This document shows, one piece after another, positions 1-32,121 of a DNA stretch of 32,997 bases (position 1 is the stretch's first letter; every line of letters begins with the position of its first letter). This DNA is from Candidatus Micrarchaeota archaeon RBG_16_49_10 (GTDB lineage: Archaea; Aenigmatarchaeota; Aenigmatarchaeia; CG10238-14), in the NCBI GenBank assembly GCA_001784635.1, contig MFRS01000003.1:94777-127773 (forward strand), in the 5' to 3' direction. Both the position numbers and the translations under genes were made by a program. The notes under the pieces were generated by a model. That model was given only the letters and a program-made list of their open reading frames with translations. It was not told the origin of the DNA and did not search any database.

Positions 1-1
1 G

Positions 2-2443: not shown

Positions 2444-2529
2444 ATATTAATAAAAATCTTCAATGTACAGAAAACAGTTAAAATTAATGTTTAAATGAGC
2501 ATACAGTTAAAAATAAGGAAGGAAATTTT

Positions 2530-3963: not shown

Positions 3964-3995
3964 GCTTCTAATAAATAGACACATTAAATGATTGT

Positions 3996-5870: not shown

Positions 5871-5877
5871 TTCTAGG

Positions 5878-6477
5878 TTATTTCAAGTTCCATCTGCTTT
5901 TTTCCGGTTCATAAGAATATGCCCTCTCTGAAACGGCCATTTCACACTCGATTTCTGAAATACCACCTAGGTAGTAACAAATTAACCTTTCAGTAAACCA
6001 AAAATTTAGATTAATAAATGGGTTTACTATAACGTTGATAACTTTCAAAAAAAAGTTGTTTGGGTGTGAAATATAATTCAGTTTCATTTTTTTAACATCG
6101 AATCCATACCTTGATCCTAATTGATAAAAGGTCTTAGTAGCAAAGAACTGTTTGTGCTCTGGATCTGAAAAGGCATTTACGCTTGAATAGTGCGGCACTC
6201 TGATTTTAACCAAACCTGTTTTTTTAAGAATTCTCCTAATTTCTTTTATACAATTAATTTTGTCATTTACATGTTCAAGTATGTAATCCATTACAACTAA
6301 GTCAAATTCGCCTTTTTTGAAAGGGTAAGGCGTTTTGTTTAGATTATGTACGATGTCAACATTAGGATGTTTTATAATGTCTAAAGTGGTTACTTTGTCT
6401 TTCGGAAACGTTTTTCTATAATTTTTATTTCCTGAGCCAAGCACTAAAATATTTCTCTTTCCTATTTTAATCACCAT
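5878..6477 (-). CDS. SAM-dependent methyltransferase (class I, methyltransferase type 11-like)
   Basis: NILVLGSGNKNY, DIVHNLNKTPYPFKKGEFDLVVMDYILEHVNDKINCIKEIRRILKKTG. Confidence 0.8.
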   Translation of the reverse strand: MVIKIGKRNILVLGSGNKNYRKTFPKDKVTTLDIIKHPNVDIVHNLNKTPYPFKKGEFDLVVMDYILEHVNDKINCIKEIRRILKKTGLVKIRVPHYSSVNAFSDPEHKQFFATKTFYQLGSRYGFDVKKMKLNYISHPNNFFLKVINVIVNPFINLNFWFTERLICYYLGGISEIECEMAVSERAYSYEPEKSRWNLK

Positions 6478-6494
6478 TCATATAAAACATAATT

Positions 6495-6527
6495 ATTTAA
6501 TTAACATTTAATTAACATTTAATTAAT
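6495..6527. repeat. Three contiguous 11-bp tandem repeats (ATTTAATTAAC x2, then ATTTAATTAAT)
   Basis: Direct reading of the intergenic sequence. Confidence 0.95.
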
Positions 6528-6539
6528 AGGTGGTTTTAG

Positions 6540-9136: not shown

Positions 9137-9198
9137 AAAACACCCATCAAATATTGTTTTACATTCTTATTAATATTATAAATTTATTAAGTGTTTGC

Positions 9199-10653
9199 AT
9201 GAGAGTTTTGCTGATAAACCCACCCTCAAAATTCAACATAAGCAAGGACAGCCGGTGGCCGGAACACACCAAGAGCGGAACTTTATACTACCCCTTTTGG
9301 CTAGCCTATACAGCGGGTGTTTTGCTCGAGGCAAAAAAGGAAGTCATGCTAATAGACTCTATAGCCAAGAGAGACACTTTTGAGTCGGCCCTGGAAAAGG
9401 TGAAGAGATTTTCGCCGAATTTGCTGGTGGCCACAACCACAACCGGAACGCTGTACGCAGATATAAAATTTTTGGAGTCAGTTAAGAAAGAATTGAAAAA
9501 ATGTAAGACCGTTTTAGCCGGATCCCATGTTACAGCTTTGCCCGAGGAAACCCTAAAAATAAGCAATTCTATAGACTTCATTACAAGAGGGGAGTTCGAA
9601 TATACAGTTTTTGAATTATCCGAGGCATTAGAAGGCCAAAAAAATTTTGAGTCAATAAAAGGCTTGTCCTATAGAAAAGGGGGTAAAATAATAAATAATC
9701 CTGGCCGTGAACCAATTACATGTCTAGACAAGATACCGTTCGTTTCGAAAGTCTACAAGAAATTTCTGAACCCACAAGATTACCGTTATGCGCTCGCTTT
9801 GCACCCAATGACACAGATTTGGACTAGCCGTGGCTGCCCCAACATGTGCAATTTCTGCGTCTATCCGCACCAGTTCACTCTTAAAGATTTCAGGGTCAGA
9901 AGTCCCAAGAATGTCGTCGATGAGGTCGAATGGATAAGCAAGAACCTACCTGAAATCAAGGAATTTTTTTTTGAAGACGACACATTTACCATAGACCAGG
10001 AAAGAGTGCACAGGATTTGCGAAGAAATACAAAGAAGACGACTTAAAGTGACATGGTCATGCAACGTGAGGGTGAGCACAAGCTACGAAACTTTGAGGAG
10101 GATGAAGGAGGCCGGCTGCAGGATAGTCATAGTCGGCTACGAGTCAGGTGACCAGAATGTTCTGAACACAATCAAAAAAGGAACCACTTTGAAACAGGCG
10201 GAGGAGTTCACAAGGAATGCAAAAAAAGTCGGTCTCAAAATATTTGGCTGCTTCATGATTGGGCTCCAAGGTGATGATAAAGTTTCTGTAGAAAAGACCT
10301 TCAATTTTGCCAAAAAAATAAATCCTGACATGGTCTTCTTCCAGCAAGCCGTTCCGTTCCCGGGAACAGCATTCTATAACTGGGTTAAAGAAATGGGATA
10401 CTTGAATGCTAAAGACTGGGACGAATGGATAGATGACAACGGCCAGCTCAGATGCTTAGTCGACTATCCGGATTTGCCTGCCGCTGAAATTAAAAAACTG
10501 AGAGACAGCTTTATGCTCAGGTTTTACCTTTCACCGAAGCATGCATTTCAGCTTTTGAGGAACAACATAAACTCGGCCTCCGAAATCGCTAGGATAATGA
10601 CATACTCCAAGGAATACCTTTTATACTTATTAAAATCCAGGAAATCTAAATAA
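9199..10653 (+). CDS. B12-binding domain radical SAM protein
   Basis: MRVLLINPPSKFN start (ATG 9199), SRGCPNMCNFC cluster motif. Confidence 0.9.
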   Translation: MRVLLINPPSKFNISKDSRWPEHTKSGTLYYPFWLAYTAGVLLEAKKEVMLIDSIAKRDTFESALEKVKRFSPNLLVATTTTGTLYADIKFLESVKKELKKCKTVLAGSHVTALPEETLKISNSIDFITRGEFEYTVFELSEALEGQKNFESIKGLSYRKGGKIINNPGREPITCLDKIPFVSKVYKKFLNPQDYRYALALHPMTQIWTSRGCPNMCNFCVYPHQFTLKDFRVRSPKNVVDEVEWISKNLPEIKEFFFEDDTFTIDQERVHRICEEIQRRRLKVTWSCNVRVSTSYETLRRMKEAGCRIVIVGYESGDQNVLNTIKKGTTLKQAEEFTRNAKKVGLKIFGCFMIGLQGDDKVSVEKTFNFAKKINPDMVFFQQAVPFPGTAFYNWVKEMGYLNAKDWDEWIDDNGQLRCLVDYPDLPAAEIKKLRDSFMLRFYLSPKHAFQLLRNNINSASEIARIMTYSKEYLLYLLKSRKSK

Positions 10654-17148: not shown

Positions 17149-17589
17149 ATGGACTGGAAAAACTTTGGCAAGGGTGTATTCTTAGTCAATGTTCTTGGGA
17201 TTGTCTATGACCCCAAGACCAAAAAAATACTCATCGGTAAGAGGGAGAAGGACAAGTACGTTCCTCAACTTTCTTGGTGTTTCCCTGGAGGCGGACCAAC
17301 CTACAAACACTCGCTGAGCATGTCCCTCAGGATGAGCATAAAGAGGAAGACCAATCTTGATGTGAACGTCTTAGACTGTATCTTTGCTAGGACGCTCCCA
17401 GAGAACCCTGAGATACTTCTCATATACTACTTCTGCGAGGTCGTCGAGGATAGCGAGAAGCCGAAGGCGATGGACGACTTGAAGGAGATAAAGTGGGTGA
17501 AGCCGACGGAAGCCACAAAGAGCTTCACGACTTCGGTCGACCCTGTTATATCCGACTTTTTGGACGCGCTGGAAAAGGGGGAAATTTAG
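17149..17589 (+). CDS. Nudix-fold protein with degenerate Nudix box
   Basis: GVFLVNVLGIVYDPKTKKILIGKREKD...WCFPGGG...LKEIKWVKPTEA; Nudix-like framework, catalytic residues missing. Confidence 0.75.
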   Translation: MDWKNFGKGVFLVNVLGIVYDPKTKKILIGKREKDKYVPQLSWCFPGGGPTYKHSLSMSLRMSIKRKTNLDVNVLDCIFARTLPENPEILLIYYFCEVVEDSEKPKAMDDLKEIKWVKPTEATKSFTTSVDPVISDFLDALEKGEI

Positions 17590-17618
17590 TTAAATTTGTC
17601 TTCTTAAATATTTCTATT

Positions 17619-18977
17619 ATGTATTCTGAACAGATTCTCGCGGTCCTAAAAAAGATGAAGGTCAAAGTCGGCGACAGGGTGAACGTGACCAAGGGAAAAG
17701 AAATATTTGAAGGGGTTCTCATGCCCCGCATAGAGGTCGGAGACCAAGACACCCTATCGATTAAGCTGAATAGCGGGTACAATGTGGGTCTTAGGTTTGA
17801 CAGGTCGGTCAATATTGAAAGGGTTGGTGATGGCCCGAAACTGGGTTCCATTCCGGCATTGAAACTGAAGGAGAGTAAAGAACTACCTTCCATTTCCATG
17901 ATATCGACAGGCGGCACCATCGGCACGCACGTCGATTACAAGACCGGCGGGGTGTTCATGTGCAGGTCACCGGAGGAGATATTGAGCACGGCACCGGAAA
18001 TCCAGAGCATTGTCAATTTGAAAAACATAATCAGACCTTTCACTCTGGCGAGCGAGGACATGCTACCTAGTGATTGGCAGAAAATGGCTGAGCTTTCCGC
18101 AAAAGAGCTAAACAAGGATGTCGAAGGAATCATCATCACCCATGGCACGGACGTTTTGCACTACACCTCATACGCGATGTCATTCATGCTCAAAAACCTC
18201 ACCAAACCTATCGCTATCGTGGGAGCCCAACGCTCCCCAGACAGGGGAAGCTTCGACGGCGCTATGAACCTCATATGCGCGGCGCATTTCATTGGGCATT
18301 CGGATGTCGCGGAGGTCTGCGTCGTCATGCACGGGAGCAGTAACGATGATTACTGCCTTGCCCACAGGGGCACCAAGGTCAGAAAGATGCACACGTCCAG
18401 GAGGGACGCCTTCCGTTCCATCAATGACATACCGCTGCTTAAAATTTGGCCCAACGGAAAAATAGAAACTTTGAACTCAAATTATAGAAAAAAATCCAAA
18501 GGGAAAGTAGTCGCCGACACTAAGTTCGAGCCGAAAGTATCTTTGGTGAAGGCCTATGTGGGTTCAGACCCGGAGATTATCGACTGGCATGTCAAGAGAG
18601 GCTTTAAGGGCATCGTTGTAGAGGGTACTGGTCTTGGCCATGTTCCGACCGGTGAGAGCGGCATAACCAAGGACCCCTTAAGGAAAAAATATTCTTGGAT
18701 ACCGCACATCAAAAGCGCGGTCGATTCAGGGGTCGCTGTCGTCATGACTTCCCAGGCGATGTATGGGAGGGTCAACCCATACGTATACAGGAACTTGAGG
18801 CTCGCAAGCAACGCTGGCACAATATTCGGTGAGGACATGCTGCCCGAGGCGGCGTATGTGAAGCTCGGGTGGGTCCTGGGGCACACCAAGAACCTTAAGA
18901 AAGTCAGGGAGCTGATGGCGCAAAATCTGGCTGGCGAGATTAACAAAAGACTGGATACCGATTTGTTTCTAATCTAG
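17619..18977 (+). CDS. gatD: Glutamyl-tRNA(Gln) amidotransferase subunit D
   Basis: L-asparaginase-like STGGTIGTHVDYKTGGV..., IITHGTDVLHYTSYAMSFML; N-terminal GatD domain. Confidence 0.95.
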   Translation: MYSEQILAVLKKMKVKVGDRVNVTKGKEIFEGVLMPRIEVGDQDTLSIKLNSGYNVGLRFDRSVNIERVGDGPKLGSIPALKLKESKELPSISMISTGGTIGTHVDYKTGGVFMCRSPEEILSTAPEIQSIVNLKNIIRPFTLASEDMLPSDWQKMAELSAKELNKDVEGIIITHGTDVLHYTSYAMSFMLKNLTKPIAIVGAQRSPDRGSFDGAMNLICAAHFIGHSDVAEVCVVMHGSSNDDYCLAHRGTKVRKMHTSRRDAFRSINDIPLLKIWPNGKIETLNSNYRKKSKGKVVADTKFEPKVSLVKAYVGSDPEIIDWHVKRGFKGIVVEGTGLGHVPTGESGITKDPLRKKYSWIPHIKSAVDSGVAVVMTSQAMYGRVNPYVYRNLRLASNAGTIFGEDMLPEAAYVKLGWVLGHTKNLKKVRELMAQNLAGEINKRLDTDLFLI

Positions 18978-18985
18978 TGGTCTTT

Positions 18986-20455
18986 ATGGATTATGACGAG
19001 ATTGGACTGAGAGTTGGGATAGAGGTCCATCACAGCCTCGACACCGAAAGGAAGCTCTTCTGCAGCTGCCCCACCTTACTGAAGACAAAGGATAATCCTG
19101 ACCTCATTCTTGAAAGGAAGCAGAGGTTTGTGGCTGGGGAAACAGGGGAAATAGACGCTGCGGCCTTTGAGGAGACAAAAAAAGGTAAAAAAATCATTTA
19201 TGAGGCGTATAAGGACTGCAACTGCCTTGTCGAGACTGACGAGGAGCCCCCGCATGCGCTGAATGTGGAGGCGTTGAAGGTGACTTTGATAATCGCAGAG
19301 CTGTTCCACTGCAGGATTGTCGATGAAATCCAGGTGATGAGGAAGACGATAGTCGATGGCAGTCTCCCTTCTGGGTTCCAAAGGACTATACTAATTGGGG
19401 TTAATGGGTGGGTGCAGACCAGCCAAGGAGAGGTCGAGATAGAGGCAATAGCGCTTGAGGAGGATTCAGGGAGGCTGGTCGCAAGCGACAAAGAATCGCT
19501 GACCTTTAGGCTTGACAGGCTCGGTACGCCTGAGGTGGAGGTTGCGGTTGGGAAGGGCATCAAATCCCCGGAACATGCTAGGGAAGTGGCGAAAAAGATA
19601 GGCGACACAGTCCGCTCCACAGGGAAGGCCATCGTCAGGGAGGGTTCTGTCAGGCAGGACGTCAACGTCTCGATAAAGGGCGGGGATAGGGTGGAGATAA
19701 AGCATGTCCCAAGCCTTTCATTGATACCTGCGGTCATAGAGAGGGAGATAACCAGGCAGCAAACCATAATTAAGGCCGGCAAAAAGGTTTCACGGGACGT
19801 TCGCAAGGTCTTACCAGACGGCTCAACGGAATTTTTGAGGCCTCTGGCTGGGGCAGCCAGAATGTACCCTGAAACAGACATCATCCCGATGGCAACTGGA
19901 CCTCTCCTAGGCTGGGTCAGGAAGAATCTACCCGAGACTCCGGAGAAGAGGTTACAAAGGTATGTGAAGAAGGGCCTTTCGGAGGAGATGGCCAGGCAGA
20001 TGGTGGATTCGGAGTATTTGGGCCTTTTTGACAGGGTTTCCGCCAAGTTCAAGGTGGAGCCAGCCTTAATAGCCGGCGTATTCGTCAGCACTTTGAGGGA
20101 CTTGGAGAGAAGAGAGGGCTTAAATGTTTCTATTTTGGCTGAAAAGGACTTTGAAGAGTTGTTTTACCTATTGAAAGGCAAAAGACTTGTAAAAGAAGCT
20201 ATCCCAGAGGTTTTGAAGCTGAAGATTGGGAATCCAGAAATAAAGATATCGGACGCAGTGAAGAAATTGGGTCTGGGCGGGCTTTCGGATGAGGAACTGG
20301 CAGCAATAATAGCCAAAAAAATAAAGGAGAACCCAAGTCAACCTGAAGGCAAGATAGTAGGATTCGTCATGAAGGATGTAAGGGGCAATGCAGACCCGGC
20401 TAGGGTGATTCAGCTTACCAAAAAAATGTTCAATAGCCCTCGTCAATCTCCTTGA
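18986..20455 (+). CDS. gatE: Glutamyl-tRNA(Gln) amidotransferase subunit E, compact form
   Basis: GIEVHHSLDTERKLFCSCPTLL, KTIVDGSLPSGFQRT, RPLAGAARMYPETDI, GatB/Yqey-like tail; follows gatD. Confidence 0.95.
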   Translation: MDYDEIGLRVGIEVHHSLDTERKLFCSCPTLLKTKDNPDLILERKQRFVAGETGEIDAAAFEETKKGKKIIYEAYKDCNCLVETDEEPPHALNVEALKVTLIIAELFHCRIVDEIQVMRKTIVDGSLPSGFQRTILIGVNGWVQTSQGEVEIEAIALEEDSGRLVASDKESLTFRLDRLGTPEVEVAVGKGIKSPEHAREVAKKIGDTVRSTGKAIVREGSVRQDVNVSIKGGDRVEIKHVPSLSLIPAVIEREITRQQTIIKAGKKVSRDVRKVLPDGSTEFLRPLAGAARMYPETDIIPMATGPLLGWVRKNLPETPEKRLQRYVKKGLSEEMARQMVDSEYLGLFDRVSAKFKVEPALIAGVFVSTLRDLERREGLNVSILAEKDFEELFYLLKGKRLVKEAIPEVLKLKIGNPEIKISDAVKKLGLGGLSDEELAAIIAKKIKENPSQPEGKIVGFVMKDVRGNADPARVIQLTKKMFNSPRQSP

Positions 20456-20771
20456 GCAGCTTGTCTTTCCTTTTCTCCAGCTTGTCTATCTCCTTTTCCA
20501 AAAAACCAGCTGTTTTCACATCTTTCGCCTTTATGACGTCCTTCCTTTTGGTTTTCAGCTCGGCGATTGTCTTCCTCGTCTCCTGCAGCTCCAATTGTTT
20601 GTCTTCTAACTCCTTGGTCTCAGTCTCGAACCTTTTCGATATCTCCTTCGTCCTCTTTATTCCCCACTTCGAGGCTAGGTAGACGAAAATGATCACAAAA
20701 ACCAACAGTATGGCAGCCGCTCCAATGGACCCCACAAAGGACACAATGCTCATGATTGTATTTCGCATCAA
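20430..20771 (-). CDS. Single-TM protein with cytoplasmic coiled coil
   Basis: One hydrophobic helix (AAAILLVFVIIFVYLASKW) then a charged heptad-like helix to the C-terminus. Confidence 0.75.
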   Translation of the reverse strand: MMRNTIMSIVSFVGSIGAAAILLVFVIIFVYLASKWGIKRTKEISKRFETETKELEDKQLELQETRKTIAELKTKRKDVIKAKDVKTAGFLEKEIDKLEKRKDKLLKEIDEGY

Positions 20772-20797
20772 GAAAACTTAAAAGTTCCGGGAGTAGC

Positions 20798-21469
20798 CTA
20801 ATCCCTTCCGAAGGCCAGGTCGTCCTTCATGACCTCGCTCTCGGACATGAGCTTGGATACCTCCTGCCTAAGCTCGGTGATCCTCCTTTCAAGCTTCTCC
20901 TCCCTCTCCTTAAGGCCCTTCATTTTGGATGGGCTGACGGCAAAATCGGTCATGTCCTCCCTGACAATCCTCAACTCCTCGTGCGCCTCGGAAAGCTCCT
21001 TCTTCAAAGTCTCCATCTGCTTGGAGGCCGCCCCGTAGGCGTCAGCCTTGGTCTTCCAGTAGCCGGTCTTGGCTCTGCCGAAGAACAGGGTCCCTAGCAC
21101 GAACATAACGGCGAATATTATGACGACGGCGAAAGTCCCTAAGCTAGAAACCGTAAACACTAAATGCGATAGGACGCCGTAGTACATCAGTGATAGCGCA
21201 AAGAGCAGCGCGATTATCACCTTGACGTTCTTCTTCTTGAAGATGTTAAGCTCTGTGAGTATGCCGAAGACGATGGTGAATGATATGAGGAACGGCACGA
21301 TGGCAAAGAAGATGACCTGCCTCAAGGTGCTGAACTTTATCTGGGGTTTGAACAGGTCGTTCATGACTTTGTAGAACCAATATGGCTGAAATCTGAACGG
21401 CAGGGAAAATGCCGACGGAAGGAAGACCACCAAGATGATAGCAAGATATATGAGGGTACTCTTCTTCAT
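20798..21469 (-). CDS. ELxIF-family membrane coiled-coil protein (copy 1)
   Basis: N-terminal hydrophobic signal, GILTELNIFKKKNVKVIIALLFALS, TM pair, GYWKTKADAYGAASKQMETLKKELSEA coiled coil. Confidence 0.8.
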   Translation of the reverse strand: MKKSTLIYLAIILVVFLPSAFSLPFRFQPYWFYKVMNDLFKPQIKFSTLRQVIFFAIVPFLISFTIVFGILTELNIFKKKNVKVIIALLFALSLMYYGVLSHLVFTVSSLGTFAVVIIFAVMFVLGTLFFGRAKTGYWKTKADAYGAASKQMETLKKELSEAHEELRIVREDMTDFAVSPSKMKGLKEREEKLERRITELRQEVSKLMSESEVMKDDLAFGRD

Positions 21470-21500
21470 GAAGGTAATTTGGGTTTATTCGATATTTAAT

Positions 21501-22418
21501 TTATGCATATAGGCTGTAGGCCTGCTTTTGGAGGATTTCGAAGAACTTATCCCTTACATGGCCCCTTATTTCCCTACCCAAGGATTTCGTGCCGTTTATC
21601 CCGACATTGTAGGCGTAGCTTATCAGCTTGCCGACATCAGTGGTTCCGTACTTCTCGAGCAGCACGCTTTCGACAAGCTTCTTGGGCTTGTAGTATGGGT
21701 GGTTCTCCCCTACTGTCTCCCTACCCAGGATCTGTTCTGTGAAAAGGCTGTTGAGCCCCTCTTCCGTTATGACGTGAGCCTCGGCTGTTGGGTCGCCCTT
21801 GTATTCCCTCATCATCTGGTCCAAAGGCGAGAATATACCAAGTGAGACGAGTATCACATGGCCGAGCTCGTGAGCCAGAATAGCTTCGGTGTCTCCTTCC
21901 TCTATGCTGGCCAAAGCCCTCCTGTAACCTCTGTAGAGCTCTGTCGCTTCCAGCCTCGCCCTATAGGCTTCCAACGGGTTTTCCGCAACCTTCCTGCATA
22001 TTTCCGCAGCCTTCTTGTATGCATCAATGTACTTTTTGACATCCGACCCGCCTTCTAGGTAGGCTCTGTGTAGCAAAAGGACATCTTCGTCATCTTTGTC
22101 ATATTCCGAGTAAGCCCCCAAAGCTTGGGGCAGGAACGGCAATGTGTAGACACCTTCTGAAGTGTACAAGGTATATGGCTGGCCGTCAAGTTCGCCGGAA
22201 ACCCTTACCTCCCTGGGGAGCACATAGTCAAGGTTATAGCGCCTTAGGTATCCCTTTACAACTTCATAAGTATCCCTGAGGGCCTTCCTTGTGGCCGCCC
22301 TATCCTCCTCCTTCCCGGACTGCACGACTATGTTGACGTCGTCTATGCTGACCGGCAGACTAGGTGGACTGAAGGTGTAAAGATGTTTTTCCAGTTGCCC
22401 CAAGTCCTGTTTTAGCAT
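21501..22418 (-). CDS. Predicted gluzincin-like zinc metallopeptidase
   Basis: EAILAHELGHVIL (HExxH) followed by ITEEGLNSLFTEQ, typical third-ligand helix. Confidence 0.65.
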   Translation of the reverse strand: MLKQDLGQLEKHLYTFSPPSLPVSIDDVNIVVQSGKEEDRAATRKALRDTYEVVKGYLRRYNLDYVLPREVRVSGELDGQPYTLYTSEGVYTLPFLPQALGAYSEYDKDDEDVLLLHRAYLEGGSDVKKYIDAYKKAAEICRKVAENPLEAYRARLEATELYRGYRRALASIEEGDTEAILAHELGHVILVSLGIFSPLDQMMREYKGDPTAEAHVITEEGLNSLFTEQILGRETVGENHPYYKPKKLVESVLLEKYGTTDVGKLISYAYNVGINGTKSLGREIRGHVRDKFFEILQKQAYSLYA

Positions 22419-22520
22419 GCCAAATACCCTTCTGAGTTTAAGTTTCTAAATATAAACTATCAACTAGTAGTGATATATATACTATTTATATATTTATATA
22501 ATGGAGCATATAGATTACTG

Positions 22521-22540
22521 TCACCACTTTTATATGGTGA
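22521..22540. promoter_or_regulatory. Inverted repeat TCACCA-N8-TGGTGA in promoter region
   Basis: tcaccacttttatatggtga, perfect 6-bp arms, upstream of ORF at 22584. Confidence 0.5.
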
Positions 22541-22583
22541 ATAATACAAAAATTTAAATACTCGCCTATAGAATAAGGAGTCT

Positions 22584-23096
22584 ATGAAAAGACTAACCGA
22601 TCACACTCTTTATGAATTACTGGGCCTTCAAAAAGATGCTTCTGAGGCTCAAATCAGAAAAGCACATAGGATGATTATGGCGTTGATTCAGGGAGAGGCA
22701 TCGGTTGCTCCTGAAATAGTAAAGGAATATAAGACTAGGTGCCCCCATTTACCAATCGGCGAAAATTTGACAAAAAATGAAAGAGACAAAATACGAGACC
22801 TTCTTGATGGAGCTAAATCCGTCCTATTCGATTCCGAGAGGAGAAAACTATATGACCTTTATGGGCAAAACGGCCTTACTAGAGCAAAATACTCTTTCGG
22901 AACTGCAGGCCTCGGAGTTATGGCGGCATGTCTTGCGTACAGCGGAATAAGAGACTTTTTAGGCTTTGATGCAGAAGAAAAGGAAACAAAAAATGAAAGA
23001 GTCCTCAGATACTTATGGGGAACAGGAAAGTTAGGATTAGCTGCTCTTGCAGGATATGGCTCATACAGTTATTTTCAGAAAACCAAAAATAGCTAA
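22584..23096 (+). CDS. J-domain-like membrane protein lacking HPD
   Basis: LYELLGLQKDASEAQIRKAHRMIMALIQ...IRDLLDGAKSVLFDSERRKLYDLYG J-like; SD-like aaggag before ATG; two C-terminal hydrophobic segments. Confidence 0.7.
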   Translation: MKRLTDHTLYELLGLQKDASEAQIRKAHRMIMALIQGEASVAPEIVKEYKTRCPHLPIGENLTKNERDKIRDLLDGAKSVLFDSERRKLYDLYGQNGLTRAKYSFGTAGLGVMAACLAYSGIRDFLGFDAEEKETKNERVLRYLWGTGKLGLAALAGYGSYSYFQKTKNS

Positions 23097-23113
23097 ATCA
23101 AAATAAAAAATCA

Positions 23114-23803
23114 CTAAACGGTATAGCCAGTCGGCGCTTCAGCCTCTTTCTTTTCCATTCTATAATCCATTTCAGACAAATGCGATCCGTAGGCTATCAA
23201 GTCCCATGGAATGACCTGTACAATTTGCGTAAGCGTGAATAGTGCGGCTCCTGCAAAATTCTTAATCTTATCTGATTTTTTGGAATAAACAGGTCGCCCA
23301 GTTTTGGGGTCTATCGCCATTAAATTTAGTGATAACTGCCCTAATATAGCCGCCAGTGGCCGTGGGATAGCTGCTATGGCATCAGCCTTCTTGTCTCTAG
23401 CCCCTTCTCTTCGATACTCACTCCTATTGTAAAATCCCTCGAAACCATAGAAGTTGAGCATGACTTGGAGAACTTGCCCAGCCCCAATTAAACCCGCCGG
23501 TAGACGTTCTTGTTTACCCATCATCCATCTCCAAAAACTAAGTAGTTGCAATCCTGCTATCGGTATCATGGCCAAGTCAGCATATGCTGTGCTATGTATT
23601 CTTTCTCCTAAATACTCATTAGTCGTAATTTGATTCCGATAACGATCATAAGCAGTCGTGAAATCAATAGACGGATTCCTCCTATGAGTAGAATATGCCG
23701 CCGTGTATAATGACGTGCTTCCATATTTCCTAACAGCGTTGCTAATCCCGTTACCGGCTTTCCCAACGTAATCTCTAAAATCTATCTTACTCAACTTCCT
23801 CAC
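23114..23803 (-). CDS. Hypothetical membrane-associated protein
   Basis: Long ORF with coding-like composition, several hydrophobic segments; overlaps next upstream gene. Confidence 0.7.
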   Translation of the reverse strand: MRKLSKIDFRDYVGKAGNGISNAVRKYGSTSLYTAAYSTHRRNPSIDFTTAYDRYRNQITTNEYLGERIHSTAYADLAMIPIAGLQLLSFWRWMMGKQERLPAGLIGAGQVLQVMLNFYGFEGFYNRSEYRREGARDKKADAIAAIPRPLAAILGQLSLNLMAIDPKTGRPVYSKKSDKIKNFAGAALFTLTQIVQVIPWDLIAYGSHLSEMDYRMEKKEAEAPTGYTV

Positions 23804-24473
23804 CCTCTACAATCTTGTCCGCTTCCCGCTTCACATACCTGAGCATTTCCCTCATCTTTATCGTGTCCTTACTGTAGGTCCCGCCGTTGTAAGCCATCTG
23901 CTCGGCCTGTCCCCTAACTTGGTTAAGCTGCAAAAGGATTTGGCCCTTTTCCTCTTTCCCGTAGGCCTCGAGTATCTTCAATGTCCTCAAGTCCAAGTCG
24001 TCGACCTTTTGGGCGGCCACATCGCTACCCCACAACAAGCTCAGCAAGGTTTTTGGGTCAAAATTAGTGCCATCAACCGTAAAACCCCCGCTTCCCGCAA
24101 GGCCCTCAGCCGACTTCATCACAGTCTCGTACAGTTTCTCCGTCCCTCTCCTTGCCTGGTGAAAGTTCCACAGTTCCATCAGCAAAAGCGCGCCCGAGGC
24201 AATCTTCCTGTCATCAGTAGTGAACTCCTTGTCGAGCTGGACCTTTCCCAAGAGTTCAAGTGAAAGCTCGTAGAATGGAGGCATCTGCTCCATCCCGTCC
24301 TTGTACCTCAGGCCCCAGACTTCCAATAGGCAGCCTTCATATTCGCCTTCGTTGTACATCCTTGCAGCCCTGTTGTAACCCCTTATGGAGCTTGCAGGGA
24401 CGTCTACCATGCCGTTGAAGAACTTGCTCATCAATCCAGTCCCGAAGGTCGGTGCCTTGTAAACCATAATCAT
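23787..24473 (-). CDS. Hypothetical helical soluble protein
   Basis: 228-aa ORF coupled to neighbours by short overlaps; no recognised domain. Confidence 0.75.
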   Translation of the reverse strand: MIMVYKAPTFGTGLMSKFFNGMVDVPASSIRGYNRAARMYNEGEYEGCLLEVWGLRYKDGMEQMPPFYELSLELLGKVQLDKEFTTDDRKIASGALLLMELWNFHQARRGTEKLYETVMKSAEGLAGSGGFTVDGTNFDPKTLLSLLWGSDVAAQKVDDLDLRTLKILEAYGKEEKGQILLQLNQVRGQAEQMAYNGGTYSKDTIKMREMLRYVKREADKIVEGEEVE

Positions 24474-25495
24474 CGCCTATACATATTCCTTGAATAATTT
24501 TTAGATTCATATTTTAGGGCATTAACACCATTGTAACTCAAATCGGCAGAAGCTGAGATTCTCCTTCTGTAGGCTGCACCTTTGGCTGCCTCCGTGATGG
24601 CCCATGCCAATAATGGCATGTAAAACGGTATCGCTTCCATTCCCATATCAATGTAATCCAAGCCTTTCCCAGCCTTTTCGCCTATGCCTTTAACTTCTTT
24701 GGCTAGACCGGCAGTTCCTTTTCTTACCCCTTCCGTTTTATTAACGACCCAGTTTCTTGGGTTTCTTAAAATCCCAGTTTTTACTTGTTTCCAATCTCCC
24801 AAATTCCCAGTTGTAGCGGAGAAAGCCGTCACTAACTCTAATATATTTTTGCCAGCTTCAATCGCGATTGTTGCATTAACTATACCATTTGCCAATTTCT
24901 GAACTTTATAGATATTTGGGTTGTAGTCGCCATACTCTTGAGCCATGAGTGTTATTAAGTCACGAACTCTATCGGCAGTTATTATACCAACGAGACCCTC
25001 AATCTTCTGGTATGCTTTGCTCAGATTGCCTTTTGCCTTTACATAGACATTCAATTCCCTTAAATCCCTCTGCCAACCTGCAACTTTACCTTCCCATCCG
25101 AGATCATAATCTTCATAATATCCTAGAGCACCACTTATTTTAGGATCTTTTATGTCAGAATATTTTACATTGTGATCTGAAGCAAGTATGGACAGTTCCT
25201 CCATATCAATTCCAGTCAACCCATTCTTCCTCTTGTATTTGTCCACACCAATTTTTGCCCTATCTTCGTCTATCCTAAATTTGGAGCCGGTGGCATTCAA
25301 AACGTCTGAAATCGCGGCGCTTGACAACTCATAACCACTCACATAAACGTAGTCAAAAACTTCGTTCAAGGCGTCATTCTGCTCTTCTTTTGTCAAATGC
25401 GTCCCAAATTCATTTGAAAAATTTTTGGCACCCCAGCTAAACAAACTCCTTAGGATTCTCTCGAAACCTTGCGAATTTGGAGCCTTCACAACCAT
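24470..25495 (-). CDS. Hypothetical helical protein with C-terminal hydrophobic segment
   Basis: 341-aa ORF, 4-nt overlap with downstream 23787-24473; no recognised domain. Confidence 0.75.
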   Translation of the reverse strand: MVVKAPNSQGFERILRSLFSWGAKNFSNEFGTHLTKEEQNDALNEVFDYVYVSGYELSSAAISDVLNATGSKFRIDEDRAKIGVDKYKRKNGLTGIDMEELSILASDHNVKYSDIKDPKISGALGYYEDYDLGWEGKVAGWQRDLRELNVYVKAKGNLSKAYQKIEGLVGIITADRVRDLITLMAQEYGDYNPNIYKVQKLANGIVNATIAIEAGKNILELVTAFSATTGNLGDWKQVKTGILRNPRNWVVNKTEGVRKGTAGLAKEVKGIGEKAGKGLDYIDMGMEAIPFYMPLLAWAITEAAKGAAYRRRISASADLSYNGVNALKYESKNYSRNMYRR

Positions 25496-25539
25496 ATTAA
25501 AACCTACTTATATCTGAGTTAAAGATTAAAAAAGAAAAA

Positions 25540-25920
25540 TTAAACAGATAATTTTTCAACTAGTTTTTCAGATTCCCTGAAGCTCTTGTAGCTCTCATAT
25601 GAAAGCATAGTAGCTCCTACCAGTTTAGCTAGTCCTGACACATACCTGAGCACTTTTCTGGTTGTGGTTTCTTTCCCGTGATCCCCAAAGAAATCTCTTG
25701 CAGCCCAATATGTTAAACCAACCGCGGCACCAGCTTCAACAGCCCCAGCACCATATCGTCTCAGACCACTTGATTCGTAACTTTCATTCAAATCTATTAT
25801 TTTTTTGTATGGATATGAGCGAATTTTATGGTATCTATCACTAAATTTTTGTTTGAAAGGGTTTTTTTCTGTGGTGCTTTCTGCTTCAACTCCATCAACT
25901 TTTTCACCTTTTCTAGTCAT
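25540..25920 (-). CDS. Small membrane protein sharing C-terminal module with the J-like protein
   Basis: SGLRRYGAGA...ARDFFGDHGKETTTRKVLRYVSGLAKLVGATMLSYESYKSF. Confidence 0.75.
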   Translation of the reverse strand: MTRKGEKVDGVEAESTTEKNPFKQKFSDRYHKIRSYPYKKIIDLNESYESSGLRRYGAGAVEAGAAVGLTYWAARDFFGDHGKETTTRKVLRYVSGLAKLVGATMLSYESYKSFRESEKLVEKLSV

Positions 25921-25940
25921 ATTTTATATCACCTAATATG

Positions 25941-25987
25941 CCACTAAATAGTAGTGCTAATATATAAACATTTGTATTGTTTAGTGG
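25941..25987. promoter_or_regulatory. Inverted repeat CCACTAAA...TTTAGTGG spanning the promoter of the 25540-25920 gene
   Basis: 8-bp perfect arms at 25941-25948 and 25980-25987 flank an AT-rich TATA-like element. Confidence 0.45.
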
Positions 25988-26158
25988 ACAAATAAAAGCT
26001 GAAATCCAACCTAAAATGGGTAAAGAAACTATTTTAGCTTTGATTGGCTTGATTTTAACAATTTGGTAGTTCAGTGATAATCTATACTAAAAAACATATA
26101 TAAAAAAATATAGAAAAATATTTATACCCCAAATACTACTATACGATAGTGACAAAAT

Positions 26159-26677
26159 ATGATAGTACGCCAAAATGATGTAGGACGTGCGAAATACACG
26201 GGAAGAGGGGCAGCTAGACCTGCCGTTGCACCAAATATACTATTCTCGTTTGCTGGCGTTAGCTATGTAAACAGAAATTATGGTGCAAGGAGGATCAATG
26301 AACTAAAAGTCTCAGATGCCTATGCGGTTGCTGGTTTGGTCGCTGGCAGTTTAGCTTTGTACGCCCTGGCGAGAAAGTACTGGCCCAGCATGAAGTCAAG
26401 GATAAGAAGGACCGCAGAGTCGACGGAAGACGGTATGAGGGAATATGTCGATTCGGAGAGGGGCTTGATTGAGGAATACAACAGCGGAATGGCCGACGCG
26501 AGCCGCGACCTTCAGAGAGTGGACGTAAGGGACGAGAAGGCATCGACCCAAGTCGAGGCCGCAGAGAAGAAGATAGAGATATACAAGGAGCTCAAGGAAG
26601 ACTCGCAGAGCGATTTGAGATACCAGCAGAGGACAGCCAGGCGAAGAGACATGTTCAGGAAGTCTGCATTGTTTTGA
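26159..26677 (+). CDS. Single-TM protein with long C-terminal coiled coil
   Basis: AYAVAGLVAGSLALYALARKYW TM followed by charged helical tail; TATA-like element ~30 nt upstream. Confidence 0.75.
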   Translation: MIVRQNDVGRAKYTGRGAARPAVAPNILFSFAGVSYVNRNYGARRINELKVSDAYAVAGLVAGSLALYALARKYWPSMKSRIRRTAESTEDGMREYVDSERGLIEEYNSGMADASRDLQRVDVRDEKASTQVEAAEKKIEIYKELKEDSQSDLRYQQRTARRRDMFRKSALF

Positions 26678-26697
26678 TTTTTTTCTTTCCTTTTTTT
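26678..26697 (+). terminator. Oligo-T archaeal-type terminator
   Basis: tttttttctttccttttttt directly after stop codon. Confidence 0.6.
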
Positions 26698-26734
26698 ACT
26701 AACCTATAAAACCTTATTCCTAGAATAGAGTTGC

Positions 26735-27589
26735 ATGCCCAAAAAGCAGGCGGGTAGAATTAAGTTAGGTGTCCATTATAGGGTAGTTCCTTGGGCACAC
26801 CGCGATTACATTTTGACTAGGCTGCCGTTCGGGAAGTACCCCCCTTACCACAAGCTGAACACGAGGCACGATTTTCTGGCGGACGTAAAGATGGAAGGGG
26901 AGAATTTCGCGACCATAACTGAGCCAGAGATCATGGGCTACGAGGATGTCTACAAAAGGAGGCTCATAAAGGTCGGGGCTGATTTGTCGACCCCCGCCGA
27001 ATGGACGCTTGATTTGCCGAACGAGTACCAGATAAACTCCGGGGAGCTAAACGAAGGCAGGCTGCTTTCGCTTGTGGTCGAGCTTTACGCGACGGAGGAG
27101 GCTGGGAGGGGGGAGCGGGAGGAATACCACCTTGACCAGAACAGGAAAAGCTTCAGCCAGCATCCCATATCCATCCCGATAAACATGACGAGGAAGATAC
27201 TCGGCGAGAAGGTGGAGCTGATGGAGCTCGGCGAGCTTTACAGTGCGGACTTCAGCATAAAGCCAAACACATCTCTGGAGTTGGATGAGGACGTAATCCC
27301 GCAGAGGGTGAAGACCTTGGGCGCTGTCGCCTACACGCTGAGGGATTCCGATGGCGAACTATACGCAAAGATATACAGGGAGCCTGTTAGCAGGCTGCTG
27401 AGCTTCGGCATCGCAAGGAGATACGGCATCGAGATACCCAAAAAATATTCAAAGGAAAGGGAGCTGATACTTTTCGTTATCGCCCTGACCGACTTCATAG
27501 ACAGCAAGAAGAGCATAAGGAGGAACCCGCAAGTTTACGATAACCAGAACAACATCCCGACCCCGGAAAGGATACTGGGATACAATTAA
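26735..27589 (+). CDS. Hypothetical protein, soluble, no recognised domain
   Basis: 284-aa ORF, codon style similar to the housekeeping block. Confidence 0.78.
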   Translation: MPKKQAGRIKLGVHYRVVPWAHRDYILTRLPFGKYPPYHKLNTRHDFLADVKMEGENFATITEPEIMGYEDVYKRRLIKVGADLSTPAEWTLDLPNEYQINSGELNEGRLLSLVVELYATEEAGRGEREEYHLDQNRKSFSQHPISIPINMTRKILGEKVELMELGELYSADFSIKPNTSLELDEDVIPQRVKTLGAVAYTLRDSDGELYAKIYREPVSRLLSFGIARRYGIEIPKKYSKERELILFVIALTDFIDSKKSIRRNPQVYDNQNNIPTPERILGYN

Positions 27590-27982
27590 CTATTTACTTT
27601 TTTTGGCCTTTTCCTTTATCCTATCGGCTATCTTCCCAAGGTAGTCGAAATAGGTCACCAGCCCGACAAAATCCCCTTTATTATCCACCACGGGCAGCGA
27701 CATGAACCCTTTCTTGAACATAAGGTCCGCAGCCTTTTCCAAATCATCCTCCAGGCTAACCGTCACGACAGGGCTGGTCATTATATCCCTGAACTTCAAT
27801 CTCTCGTAGTCAGCCTCGCTCTTTATGCTCCTTACTAGGTCGTTGTTCGTCACTATACCCACAGGCTTCCTGCCCTCGACGACCACAAGGATGTGGCAGT
27901 ACATGTTCCTGACCGAGGAGAGCTTCTCGTCGGCCTTCACCTGGCGGTGCTCGTCGTCGATTCTGCAGTCCGCAATCTTCAT
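27590..27982 (-). CDS. Tandem CBS-domain protein
   Basis: ILVVVEGRKPVGIVTNNDLVRSI, DIMTSPVVTVSLEDDLEKAADLMFKKGFMSLPVVDNKGDFVGLVTYFDYL. Confidence 0.9.
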   Translation of the reverse strand: MKIADCRIDDEHRQVKADEKLSSVRNMYCHILVVVEGRKPVGIVTNNDLVRSIKSEADYERLKFRDIMTSPVVTVSLEDDLEKAADLMFKKGFMSLPVVDNKGDFVGLVTYFDYLGKIADRIKEKAKKSK

Positions 27983-28020
27983 GAAATAAATATATCCTTC
28001 GGAGATAAATATTGTTTATT

Positions 28021-28644
28021 ATGGGAATGTCCAAATACGAGGCCAGCGCGCTCCTTTGGCTCTTGGCAAGATACAACCCAGGCGTAGCCCATCTCATCAG
28101 GGACCCGGAGAACAAGAAGAAGCTTACATCCGAGATAGAGGAGAGCCTTAAGGCGATAGCCTACGGCATTTCCCACGACGCGCTGGACGCAATCTGGGAG
28201 AAGGTGGAGGATGCGGCTGAAATCGGGGCTTTGGTCCCCACGGGAGGAACTGGGTCAGTTTCCATGGAGGCCGCAAGTTTCATAGCTAAGATGATGGTGC
28301 TCGGCCCCCTTGCGAGGAAATACTACTCATCTATTGAAAAGGTCCGTCCAGGCGTCTCCAAGGCTTTGGAGGCCTACCAGAACTTTTCAAATCTCCCACT
28401 ACTGGATAGCATACTCACAGTAATCCCGGAGAAGGGCATAGCGGCCATATACGCTTTCGTCAGGAACATCTACAGCATCATAAAGCAGGGGAAGAGCTTC
28501 GAGAGGGATGCCAAATACGGCAGAGGGGACTATGTGGACGACCTCTACGGCAAGGGGATGGAAGGGTACAGGGACCAGACTAGCACACACCCACTGAGGC
28601 CTGCGCTTGAGGATTACGGGGTTTCAAAAGCAAAGAAGAAGTGA
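28021..28644 (+). CDS. Hypothetical helical protein
   Basis: 207-aa ORF from ATG 28021, coding-like composition; no recognised domain. Confidence 0.75.
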   Translation: MGMSKYEASALLWLLARYNPGVAHLIRDPENKKKLTSEIEESLKAIAYGISHDALDAIWEKVEDAAEIGALVPTGGTGSVSMEAASFIAKMMVLGPLARKYYSSIEKVRPGVSKALEAYQNFSNLPLLDSILTVIPEKGIAAIYAFVRNIYSIIKQGKSFERDAKYGRGDYVDDLYGKGMEGYRDQTSTHPLRPALEDYGVSKAKKK

Positions 28645-28710
28645 ACACCTTTCTGAAATAATTAAAACTTGGAAAAGAAAGTTATTTTAAGAATTCGCTA
28701 TGTGAAAAGT

Positions 28711-29472
28711 ATGGGAAAACGTCCTAAAGTAAATATAACCAATGTTATACCTACTGGTCCACCAAAAAGTGGGTTTGGCAGATTTATAGGTGGTTATAAC
28801 GACCTTCTTGTAGCTGTCGGTGGTACCGTTCAACTTTTGATGACCGCCATACAACAAGTCATACCAGCAGTCACGCCTCAATATCAACTCCAAAAAGAAC
28901 CAGTTCAAGTATTATCAGTTCACCCATACGATGGATTACTCAAAATAGCGAGCGAGGCTGAAGCGATTTGCATAAAATACGGAAATACCCAACTTTTAAA
29001 CCAAATAAGGGAACAGACAGATACGTTAAGACTACAGGCAGACCGTTTAATTGGATACCGAAAGCTTTTGGAAGACCCAACTGTTCATGACAAACTTTCC
29101 AATTACGATTTACAACCGTCAGATCAAAGACCAAGGGACTCTCTAGAACCATACTTAAATCAACCAAGAGACGAAGTTTATAGGAATGAATTAAAATCAA
29201 ATTTGTACACTCCATACAATCCTTCGTCAGTTTCTCCGCAAGCTCCGGTTGCTCAACAAAAGAAAAAGACGGACCCAACAACAACTACAGCAGTGGTAAC
29301 TCTTTTAATCTCGACATTAACCCTGCTCTACCTTCCGTTCTCTTCCCTGACCGCGACGGCAAAAGTAGCTTCACCCACGTCCTCGGCCTTGCCGATATTC
29401 ATAGGATTGGCTTCTATAATAGCCGTCTCGATAGTCTTCTTGGCAAGAAGGAAGTCACATGTTCCTGGTTGA
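28711..29472 (+). CDS. Hypothetical protein with C-terminal TM segments
   Basis: Helical N-terminal part, Pro/Gln/Ser-rich linker, two C-terminal hydrophobic segments ending LARRKSHVPG. Confidence 0.7.
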   Translation: MGKRPKVNITNVIPTGPPKSGFGRFIGGYNDLLVAVGGTVQLLMTAIQQVIPAVTPQYQLQKEPVQVLSVHPYDGLLKIASEAEAICIKYGNTQLLNQIREQTDTLRLQADRLIGYRKLLEDPTVHDKLSNYDLQPSDQRPRDSLEPYLNQPRDEVYRNELKSNLYTPYNPSSVSPQAPVAQQKKKTDPTTTTAVVTLLISTLTLLYLPFSSLTATAKVASPTSSALPIFIGLASIIAVSIVFLARRKSHVPG

Positions 29473-30273
29473 CTCGTGCAATTCAGTGAGCCTCTCCTGG
29501 ACGTCCCTTCTCCTATCCTGCAGCTCCCTAAGACTGGCTTCCAAGGCGACCCTTTTGTTCGGGTCTTTTTCAGTAGCTAATTTGTGAGCAGCCTCAGCAA
29601 CAGCCTCGCTCATCTCGGCTAATTCTAACCTAAGGTTCTTGGTTTCGTCATGAAAAGCGGAGTAGACGCCAGCAGTGGTAGACCATTGTAGCTTTTTTTT
29701 AAGGAAGAAATAGTACAAACCAAATGTGAATATTAAACCAAACGCTAAGAGCGAAGCCCAACCCATTCCGTAAAAATATAGAAACAACAGTGTATAGGCG
29801 CAAAGTACGGTAGTACCTTGAAGAAGTGGCATTATAGGTTGTGCAAGTGGCCCTAACCACGCTACCGGTAGTGGGACAATCATAACTAAGGCTACCGTGA
29901 GAGCTAGCCAGACATTAGTTATCTGCGTTGACCTGAAAATTTTAAGCTCGTTCAAAAAACCATACACAATAAAAAAAACAGAGCCGGGAATAAGCACAAT
30001 AAGGAGCAGATTTACTATGCTAGCTAAAATTGGTGGTAGCACCATGTTGGCATAGTTCGTCAGTGCCAAGGCTATATTCGGACCCATAATAAAAATCGTA
30101 AGGGCCTTCAACCATACAGGAACATTATTTAATAAGTCAGATTTTGTATTGGTCTGGCTTCTGCTCCCTGGACCACTTGGGTCTAGACTGGTAGCAAACC
30201 GAAGTCCTATCAGAGACAACAACAAAATTAGAATAAGTCCCCGCCAAACCCTTCTCATGAAATAATTATGCAA
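29455..30273 (-). CDS. ELxIF-family membrane coiled-coil protein (copy 2)
   Basis: Signal peptide; VFFIVYGFLNELKIFRSTQITNVWLALTVAL; LQWSTTAGVYSAFHDETKNLRLELAEM; coiled coil. Confidence 0.82.
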   Translation of the reverse strand: MHNYFMRRVWRGLILILLLSLIGLRFATSLDPSGPGSRSQTNTKSDLLNNVPVWLKALTIFIMGPNIALALTNYANMVLPPILASIVNLLLIVLIPGSVFFIVYGFLNELKIFRSTQITNVWLALTVALVMIVPLPVAWLGPLAQPIMPLLQGTTVLCAYTLLFLYFYGMGWASLLAFGLIFTFGLYYFFLKKKLQWSTTAGVYSAFHDETKNLRLELAEMSEAVAEAAHKLATEKDPNKRVALEASLRELQDRRRDVQERLTELHESTRNM

Positions 30274-30295
30274 TCCTAACTTTTTAAATTTGGGT

Positions 30296-31042
30296 TTAGG
30301 CCGACCTTAAAGTTCCTCTCATCTCCTCGAGCCTGTCCTCTAAGCTTCTCACATCGTCTTTGAGTTTAGTCACCTGGGCCTCGAGTTCCGCTCTCCTGCT
30401 TGAGCTAGCGGTCCCGGCCATCTTCTCGGTCAGCTCTATTAACAGATCCCTTTTTTGGGCTAGCTCCATCCTCAACCCCTTCACAATCTCGTCATACCCT
30501 GCCGCAACGCTGGCCTGCGAGCCCCACTCAGACTTCCTTCTTTTGTAGTATAACCATGTCCCTACTATGAAAATCAGGGCAAAAAGGAGGACTGCCCATG
30601 TAGTTAATATTTGGAAAACAAAGTTGGCTATCATGTAGGTTACGTGCAGCGGGAAGAGGGAGAAAGACATCAATAAGGCCAGCCAAATATTGGCCTTTCG
30701 TACCCTTCTGAAAATCCTCAGCTCCTCCAAGAAACCGTAGACGATTATGAAAATAGCCAGGAAAGGTAAAATCGCGTACTGAACCAACACCCATATGAGA
30801 GTTAGGTTGAAAATAGTACCATGCGCCCCAGGCTCAAGTTTACTTGCTGGTATCCCAGTAAAGAATGAAAGAAAACCAGCTTTACAACTTTTAGTACCGC
30901 AAGCCTCTGTGCCCTTACACACATTTTGTAAATCCTCTAATGAACATCCTTGTTTCAAGAAAACTAGAGGATTAAATGCAGCGACTACATTCAGAATTAA
31001 CAAAGAGCACAATACCAAACTGACAGATTGGAGTTTTCTCAC
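30296..31042 (-). CDS. ELxIF-family membrane coiled-coil protein (copy 3), Cys-rich exodomain
   Basis: Signal peptide; IFIIVYGFLEELRIFRRVRKANIWLALLMSFSLFPLH; SEWGSQASVAAGYDEIVKGLRMELAQK; coiled coil. Confidence 0.83.
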   Translation of the reverse strand: MRKLQSVSLVLCSLLILNVVAAFNPLVFLKQGCSLEDLQNVCKGTEACGTKSCKAGFLSFFTGIPASKLEPGAHGTIFNLTLIWVLVQYAILPFLAIFIIVYGFLEELRIFRRVRKANIWLALLMSFSLFPLHVTYMIANFVFQILTTWAVLLFALIFIVGTWLYYKRRKSEWGSQASVAAGYDEIVKGLRMELAQKRDLLIELTEKMAGTASSSRRAELEAQVTKLKDDVRSLEDRLEEMRGTLRSA

Positions 31043-31052
31043 TAAATATCAC

Positions 31053-31745
31053 CTATATATCATCCAATTGCTTCATCTGAGCCCTGACATTGCTTATCTC
31101 AGCGTCTATTTTATCTAACCTTTGCGTTATTTGATCCAACCTTTTGCCTCTCGCGTCAGGTATCTCCTCGACTAACAACTTCCTCTCCTCATACAGTTGG
31201 CTCAGTTGCTCTTTAATGGATTTTTTAGCTACAGCTTCGGCTTCCGCAGTCGCGGCGGCCGATGTCCACTGCGACCTTCTGACTACCCCATACTTCCAGA
31301 TACCCACTGCGAAAATAAACGCGAAGACTAGGACAGCCCAAAAGGACATAAGATTGAACGTGACATTAACAAGCCATAAAAACATATGGGTCGGGAGTGT
31401 CGAAAAGGCTATTAAGAAAGACAGAATTCCATTGACCTTCCTAGTCCTCCTGAATATCCTCAATTCCTTGAGGAAGGCATATACAATTATCCAAACGCTG
31501 AAGAACGGTAATATACCAACCCATATAAACATAAACCAATTCTGTGTTGTCGCATCAAAACCAAACCATTCTGCCAAAACCCAAATAACTATATCCCACA
31601 ACCATTGAGGAACATCCTTTAAATCGCTTGGAAATGTCGGGACTGGTCCCCCAGCACCCGGAGTTGGTCCAATACCAAGAACAACATTCAAAGTAAGAGT
31701 TAAAAAAACAAGTAGGAACAGACTTCTTATAAGCTTCTTACCCAT
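31053..31745 (-). CDS. ELxIF-family membrane coiled-coil protein (copy 4)
   Basis: Signal peptide; VWIIVYAFLKELRIFRRTRKVNGILSFLIAFSTLPTH; SQWTSAAATAEAEAVAKKSIKEQLSQL; coiled coil. Confidence 0.83.
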   Translation of the reverse strand: MGKKLIRSLFLLVFLTLTLNVVLGIGPTPGAGGPVPTFPSDLKDVPQWLWDIVIWVLAEWFGFDATTQNWFMFIWVGILPFFSVWIIVYAFLKELRIFRRTRKVNGILSFLIAFSTLPTHMFLWLVNVTFNLMSFWAVLVFAFIFAVGIWKYGVVRRSQWTSAAATAEAEAVAKKSIKEQLSQLYEERKLLVEEIPDARGKRLDQITQRLDKIDAEISNVRAQMKQLDDI

Positions 31746-31818
31746 TGTGTATCAACCTTAACTAAGATTAATTTCGAAATTCCAATATTTATATTTTCCC
31801 AGAAGACAAATTCTATTC

Positions 31819-32121
31819 ATGATACCGGCAACTCCAGGGCTATTCGTCTTCATCCCGTCATCAATACTTTTGACGGTCGCCCTATACCACCTCCTAAATG
31901 AACTGAAAATCTTCAACTTCCAGAAGGCCAACATCCCTATAGCCATAGCCATCGCGCTGCCGGCGATGTACTTCCTCTCCTTCCTTTCCCCGTTCATTGG
32001 AGCCGCATCAATCTTCATCATATTCACTACAAGGCCGAAGAAGGAGACCAAGATGCGGCTGGCCATGCTGCTGTCCGCAGGCTACTTTCTGGCGGCCTCC
32101 CTTGTGGTGTACCTCCTCTGA
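31819..32121 (+). CDS. Minimal ELxIF-family TM protein without coiled coil
   Basis: LTVALYHLLNELKIFNFQKANIPIAIAIALPAMYFL resembles the core of copies 2-4; no charged C-terminal tail. Confidence 0.72.
   Translation: MIPATPGLFVFIPSSILLTVALYHLLNELKIFNFQKANIPIAIAIALPAMYFLSFLSPFIGAASIFIIFTTRPKKETKMRLAMLLSAGYFLAASLVVYLL

Follow-up and report, generated by a model that had tools for sequence, protein, structure and literature searches.

A membrane-protein family of a gatE-smc gene block in an Aenigmatarchaeota genome has homologues at a type IV pilus-like locus

Two type IV pilus (T4P)-like loci that encode CpaF and TadC along with coiled-coil proteins are described in the main text of a study of cluster 2 DPANN archaea, Aenigmarchaeota included, where a role in host interaction is proposed for them (Hamm et al. 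2024, PMC11291902). DPANN genomes also hold dark-matter pilus islands, in which unrecognised proteins surround a FlaI-type ATPase and TadC and have been read as signal-peptide pilins (Makarova et al. 2019, PMC6393860). In the part of a broader survey compared here, two-component systems of Thermoproteales subclade 4D pair a secretion ATPase with a protein of 4-5 transmembrane segments (TMs) that is suggested to be a diverged TadC (Makarova et al. 2016, PMC4858521). Here we analyse a 32,997-nucleotide stretch (the window) from Candidatus Micrarchaeota archaeon RBG_16_49_10, taken as a DPANN archaeon of the Aenigmatarchaeota, in which 17 open reading frames (ORFs) at 20430-32121 form a block between gatE and smc. 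With a probability of roughly 0.55, we read this block as an accessory module, relocated and expanded, that belongs to a DPANN machine resembling type IV pili (CpaF/T2SSE ATPase, TadC and a coiled-coil protein), together with fast-evolving helical genes.

One membrane-protein superfamily accounts for 6 of the 17 ORFs. Its full form, here called 4TM-CC, starts with a signal peptide or lipobox and continues with a 3-TM core, after which a cytosolic coiled-coil hairpin makes up the C-terminus. Four minus-strand genes, matched by a single profile (A1) at E < 1e-60 each, encode it: 20798..21469 (paralogue group a, with signal peptide, 3-TM core and cytosolic coiled coil; E 3e-62), 29455..30273 (group c; E 2e-62, and placed by a tree described below), 30296..31042 (group b; E 8e-75) and 31053..31745 (group d; A1 profile, tree and AlphaFold2 model). 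A preliminary description of this DNA had noted an anchored N-terminus, TMs and a coiled coil as a recurrent design, and these four proteins bear that out. It had also listed proteins with a single TM and a coiled coil, which holds for 20430..20771 (minus strand), while the TM of 26159 is weak. The former is a half-member that covers the final TM and the coiled coil of 4TM-CC (A1 positions 110-215, E 8e-11). The sixth member, at 31819..32121 (plus strand) beside smc, is a minimal protein consisting of the bare 3-TM core; hhalign aligns it to the 4TM-CC profile with E 7.5e-7 and a score of 46, compared with scores of 24 or less for ten shuffles.

Beyond the signal peptide, the full-form proteins have three more membrane helices; these carry ELRIF or a variant motif, followed by basic residues. 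A topology signal is provided by the basic ELRIFRR that follows the first core TM, and a lipobox-like cysteine is present in the 4TM-CC proteins L018_6054 and L021_335. The AlphaFold2 model of 31053 contains the 3-TM core, a 74-residue helix and an antiparallel return helix; a Foldseek search with this model against the PDB and viral structures returned nothing under E 0.1. Because of the signal peptides, the lipobox-like cysteine, the position of ELRIFRR and the modelled helices, we infer that the N-terminus lies outside, that the protein spans the membrane three times and that the coiled-coil hairpin is cytoplasmic.

The 4TM-CC core recurs in another family, 5TM, whose members are ~180 amino acids (aa) long: profile comparison with hhalign supports this homology with a score of 64.6 and E 3e-9, and the top score among one reversed and eight locally shuffled controls was 34. 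The minimal protein 31819 also aligns to the 5TM profile (hhalign E 1e-5). Three tandem 5TM genes are found at L041:7082-8758, on the same contig as the block. Their neighbours encode a 748-aa ATPase of the T2SSE/CpaF type, a TadC-like platform protein of 644 aa, single-TM pilin-like proteins and a coiled-coil protein, the last with a weak nucleoporin-like match. The ATPase is nearest to FlaI/TadA models, with an NCBIfam FlaI match (E 5e-36) that falls short of the cut-off of that model, and the platform is assigned to TadC by a T2SSF match in a homologue (E 2e-8) and by hhalign to ordinary TadC (E 3e-9). Across the relatives searched, which comprise 58 genomes from 20 families with 27 near-complete assemblies, the ATPase and the 5TM family are each present in 56 of 58 genomes, among them all 27 that are near-complete, and the coiled-coil protein was found in 50 of 58. 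In six genomes (G005, G016, G037, G047, G048 and G055) the match to the pilus ATPase falls in two segments of one open frame (920-2007 aa), and the break near query residues 473-540 would be the pattern as expected for inteins.

From gene content, we infer that L041 corresponds to locus 2 of Hamm et al., whose loci, as presented in the main text, likewise pair a CpaF-type ATPase with a TadC-like platform and include coiled-coil proteins. The source genome has a second, conventional pilus locus (L042:4766-12720) that encodes a 590-aa T2SSE ATPase, a 291-aa T2SSF protein and pilin-like proteins and is adjoined by a thermosome-like gene; it resembles locus 1 of PMC11291902 in its thermosome subunit, pilin-like genes, ATPase and TadC. 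In the compared passages of its main text, PMC11291902 does not bring up the three 5TM proteins, 4TM-CC or the array between gatE and smc, and the novelty of the 5TM/4TM-CC family relative to that paper is judged on these passages. The system is probably a variant of the DPANN T4P-like machinery reported there.

Other described systems share some of these features. As in the archaeal type IV pili and archaella (FlaI, FlaJ, FlaC/D/E) covered by the compared part of PMC4858521, the L041 ATPase is FlaI/TadA-like and its platform T2SSF/TadC-like, but the block itself lacks an ATPase, a platform and a class III pilin, and that part describes nothing that corresponds to the 3-TM-core family. Subclade 4D, as characterised there, offers a parallel, by its description, in that a pilus-type ATPase is encoded with small 4-5 TM proteins; those are suggested to be diverged TadC, whereas L041 has a TadC in addition. 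The DPANN islands of PMC6393860 similarly group unrecognised proteins around a pilus ATPase and TadC, whereas the unrecognised proteins found here are multi-TM and lie partly away from the ATPase.

Outside the family to which the window belongs, 4TM-CC genes typically occur within the pilus-like locus, and this placement is our chief line of evidence. For a tally of locations we used matches at E ≤ 2e-12, with 5TM genes excluded, in genomes outside the family (n = 17). A 4TM-CC gene lies on the same contig as, and no more than 12 kb from, the ATPase or 5TM genes in 14 of these genomes (G015, G018, G019, G022, G024, G025, G026, G028, G029, G030, G031, G040, G047 and G053), and on a separate contig from the pilus genes in the remaining three. 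The binomial P for 14 of 17 is 4e-16 at an assumed chance rate of 5%, with no correction for tandem duplication. A tree of 74 proteins separates 4TM-CC from 5TM with support of 1.0 and resolves the 5TM trio as three old paralogues common to several families. In the same tree the 4TM-CC copies of the gatE-smc block interleave with those of pilus loci, the deep nodes being weakly supported. Core homology to the 5TM trio, the presence of 4TM-CC within the pilus locus elsewhere and the interleaved tree are the reasons for reading the block as a displaced module.

The block is well defined in its own genome (G000; 0.92 Mb, 83% complete), in which the window corresponds to contig C3, 94777-127773. 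It is flanked by gatD (17493-18977) and gatE (18977-20455) on one side and by smc (from 32188) on the other, and its coding share is 93.7%. The preliminary description had given about 16 ORFs between housekeeping genes; the block and its flanks are as it stated, but the count is 17. When ORF frames were scored with a codon model trained on the adjacent housekeeping genes, the own frame scored best for 16 of the 17, and the sole exception, 31819-32121, is an ORF backed by its homologues. Third-codon-position GC content (GC3) is low (0.27-0.40) in the orphans 22584, 23114, 24470, 25540 and 28669, while their neighbours range from 0.56 to 0.76. Elsewhere in the window, positions 1-8000, which include a methyltransferase-like gene, have a GC content of 0.29-0.37 versus 0.37-0.53 in the remainder.

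Each of the seven genera in the family has block members next to gatE, smc or both. In genus g7, where the pieces are spread over several contigs, gatE, 20430, 20798, 23114, 26735, 28012, CBS, three or four 4TM-CC genes, 3TM and smc come in matching order. Homologues of 20430 adjoin gatE in L022, L052 and L057, and orthologues of 20798 lie beside gatE in L019 and L022 and adjoin the peptidase gene in L023; a single-sequence search with 30296 gave matches in 18 of 58 genomes. The version of the block in genome G004 spans 5 kb and encodes CBS, 4TM-CC and 3TM proteins as well as a further HExxH protein. The gatE gene of genus g3 is followed by CBS, one 4TM-CC gene and four tandem genes for ~320-aa proteins with 5-6 TMs, the last seen beside gatE in L053, L054 and L059. 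The cargo between gatE and smc varies strongly from genus to genus, and with its recurring members and changing cargo the block therefore comprises a stable core and a fast-changing remainder. This is the outcome of the neighbourhood comparison across related archaea that the preliminary description had proposed.

Several contigs of relatives show further features at these sites. As read from the sequence, the block of G009 (L018:3306-4123 and 8405-9787) is broken by a ribbon-helix-helix (RHH)/PIN-like toxin-antitoxin pair and an ATPase gene, interruptions that would be consistent with an insertion hot spot, and in G006 (L023:3277-10260) dnaJ-dnaK and apparent grpE and hsp20 genes are found a few kb away from the 4TM-CC and HExxH genes. 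The smc frame of G005 (L051:6140-10000) matches the window SMC from residue 40 only, beginning at frame residue 603, which suggests a putative intein near the Walker A region.

The remaining block genes fall into a few recognisable types and a set of orphans. A CBS-pair protein with two CBS motifs (27590..27982, minus strand; Pfam CBS E 2e-19) confirms the assignment made at the outset, and it recurs in the blocks of genera g1, g3, g5 and g7 (cluster of 7). The gene at 21501..22418 (minus strand) encodes a protein previously called metallopeptidase-like; its HELGH motif, at residue 183, is present, but no family match is significant, the best being Pfam DUF2268 at E 0.022, which fails the cut-off. 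It is 29% identical across 270 aa to L023_9433, which has HEILH (E 3.5e-21), and the same site in L019 and L050 is occupied by other HExxH proteins without BLAST similarity to it. Streptopain was considered for 21501 on a peptidase profile match of E 0.009 and was judged a chance match.

The protein at 22584..23096 (plus strand), earlier described as J-like, indeed matches Pfam DnaJ (E 1.2e-6) and retains both ends of the J domain, but is degenerate: the HPD motif is absent, and HRMIMALIQGE stands at the expected site between helices II and III. Its C-terminus forms a weakly hydrophobic hairpin of ~53 aa that is homologous to the small weakly hydrophobic hairpin protein at 25540..25920 (minus strand; hhalign E 2e-7 against shuffles). 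We tested a hairpin family across all helical orphans and found it true only for these two. The orphan helical protein at 23114..23803 (minus strand) has a homologue in L022 (34% identity, E 4e-23) that is fused to a complete J domain (L022_2246; DnaJ E 4e-15, HPD present). This fusion and the common hairpin suggest that genes of the 23114, 22584 and 25540 types may act together.

No family was found for the orphan helical proteins at 23787..24473 (minus strand; coding by codon score) and 24470..25495 (minus strand), and none that convinces for 26159..26677 (plus strand), a helical/coiled-coil protein with its weak single TM. The orphan at 26735..27589 (plus strand) is confined to two genera of the family, its own and g7: it is 33-35% identical to L017_525 and L022_10, a profile search found it in 3 of 58 genomes, and AlphaFold2 gave no usable model (predicted local distance difference test score 29). 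At 28012..28644 (plus strand) is an orphan helical protein kept beside CBS, with 40-41% identity to L017_4482 and L021_1074. The protein at 28669..29472 (plus strand), which has a C-terminal 2-TM tail, aligns weakly to L017_3067, L021_2076 and L018_9943 at the equivalent location. Against Pfam, PHROG, NCBIfam and PDB sequences, the orphan ORFs gave only coiled-coil or chance matches, so the initial statement that most ORFs lack a recognisable family stands.

The preliminary description had supposed a lineage-specific, envelope-associated machine. The block is lineage-specific and envelope-associated, but it is not a self-contained new machine. Its defining membrane proteins are homologous to subunits encoded beside a T2SSE/CpaF ATPase and TadC, and outside the family they themselves lie in that pilus-like locus. 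A clear secretion-system match had been named as speaking against such a machine; since the homologues lie in a pilus-like locus, this match exists in part, via relatives of the block proteins and not via the block itself. Integrase, transposase, capsid and secretion-ATPase genes are absent from the block, as had been stated, and Pfam gave no T2SSE or T2SSF match in any of its 17 ORFs, nor does the block have a class III pilin; the locus with a secretion ATPase is further along the contig. Several observations weigh against a displaced pilus module. The 5TM genes of that locus, L041, are about 93 kb from the block, with the secretion-ATPase locus given as about 96 kb downstream, and the array is apart from pilus genes in both the window genome and genus g7, so that neighbourhood support derives from other families. 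Eleven of the 17 genes (J, HExxH, CBS and orphans) lack an independent tie to the pilus, and the block is reduced or very divergent in genera g3 and g6. The fold model of 31053 has a predicted template modelling score of 0.33 and no structural match. Tandem duplication of 5TM genes could, in addition, have put 4TM-CC near the ATPase without any common function.

An unlikely alternative is that 4TM-CC proteins, though kin of 5TM by ancestry, now work in a complex of their own that includes the J, HExxH, CBS and hairpin proteins and might serve, for instance, membrane remodelling or the quality control of proteins. It would explain why the gatE-smc block keeps partners apart from the pilus locus (CBS in g1, g3, g5 and g7, HExxH in g1, g5 and g7, and the J fusion of L022), but other families have 4TM-CC genes within the pilus locus, and these interleave with block genes in the tree. 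Ranking after it, and also improbable, is the absence of any machine, with gatE-smc a turnover hot spot that collects unrelated lineage-specific genes and the 4TM-CC array one resident. The strongly differing cargo among genera, the contrast of low-GC3 orphans with their neighbours and the RHH/PIN-like pair and ATPase gene that interrupt the block in L018 all argue for this, yet genus g7 keeps the order of the 4TM-CC groups, CBS and 28012. Many orphans and a compositional mosaic might also recall an integrated virus or plasmid, but a remnant of this kind is very improbable: hallmark genes are missing, nine of ten orphan-type ORFs have no PHROG match (the tenth only at E 0.009), fold matches to viral proteins are not significant, phage records lack a match for a 4TM-CC protein and plasmid records for 26735, and conservation beside gatE and smc is vertical. 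As this conservation in seven genera also indicates, the block is not a standard mobile element, in agreement with the original view. Least probable of all are insertases of the Oxa1/YidC/Get1 type, which have 3 TMs and a cytosolic coiled coil. TM count and coiled coil are alike, and weak matches at chance level include Get1/Get2 and TMCO1. However, Oxa1-type insertases have the coiled coil between TM1 and TM2, whereas that of 4TM-CC is C-terminal, after the last TM; there was no insertase Pfam match, and the structural match has E 0.9.

We hold the predicted link of the block to the pilus-like machine, for which homology and neighbourhood are the sole basis, with moderate confidence and the detailed mechanism with low confidence. 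If the block is a displaced accessory module, the 3-TM cores would join the 5TM trio and TadC in forming the base of the machine, and the coiled-coil hairpins would extend to the ATPase or to the coiled-coil protein, so that the 4TM-CC paralogues would be interchangeable parts of that base. Lineage-specific partners in assembly, quality control or regulation would be encoded by the J-domain, HExxH, CBS and helical-hairpin genes, which is the weakest step of the proposal. A wider idea, put forward tentatively and doubtful as a whole, is that Aenigmatarchaeota have an apparatus for contact or secretion that derives from T4P and whose membrane base consists of a 3-TM-core family not recognised before, made up of the invariant 5TM trio and lineage-variable 4TM-CC proteins, with the second cluster at gatE-smc tailoring it, possibly per host.

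The block is real, conserved and partly explained. T4P-like loci are among the few candidates for the means by which DPANN archaea hold on to their hosts and trade material with them, and such archaea may use a type IV pilus-like machine for host contact. A membrane family tied to the pilus-like locus in every near-complete relative searched supplies specific candidate genes. The findings also suggest that some components of a pilus machine can be encoded away from its recognised locus and would escape a search restricted to pilus genes.

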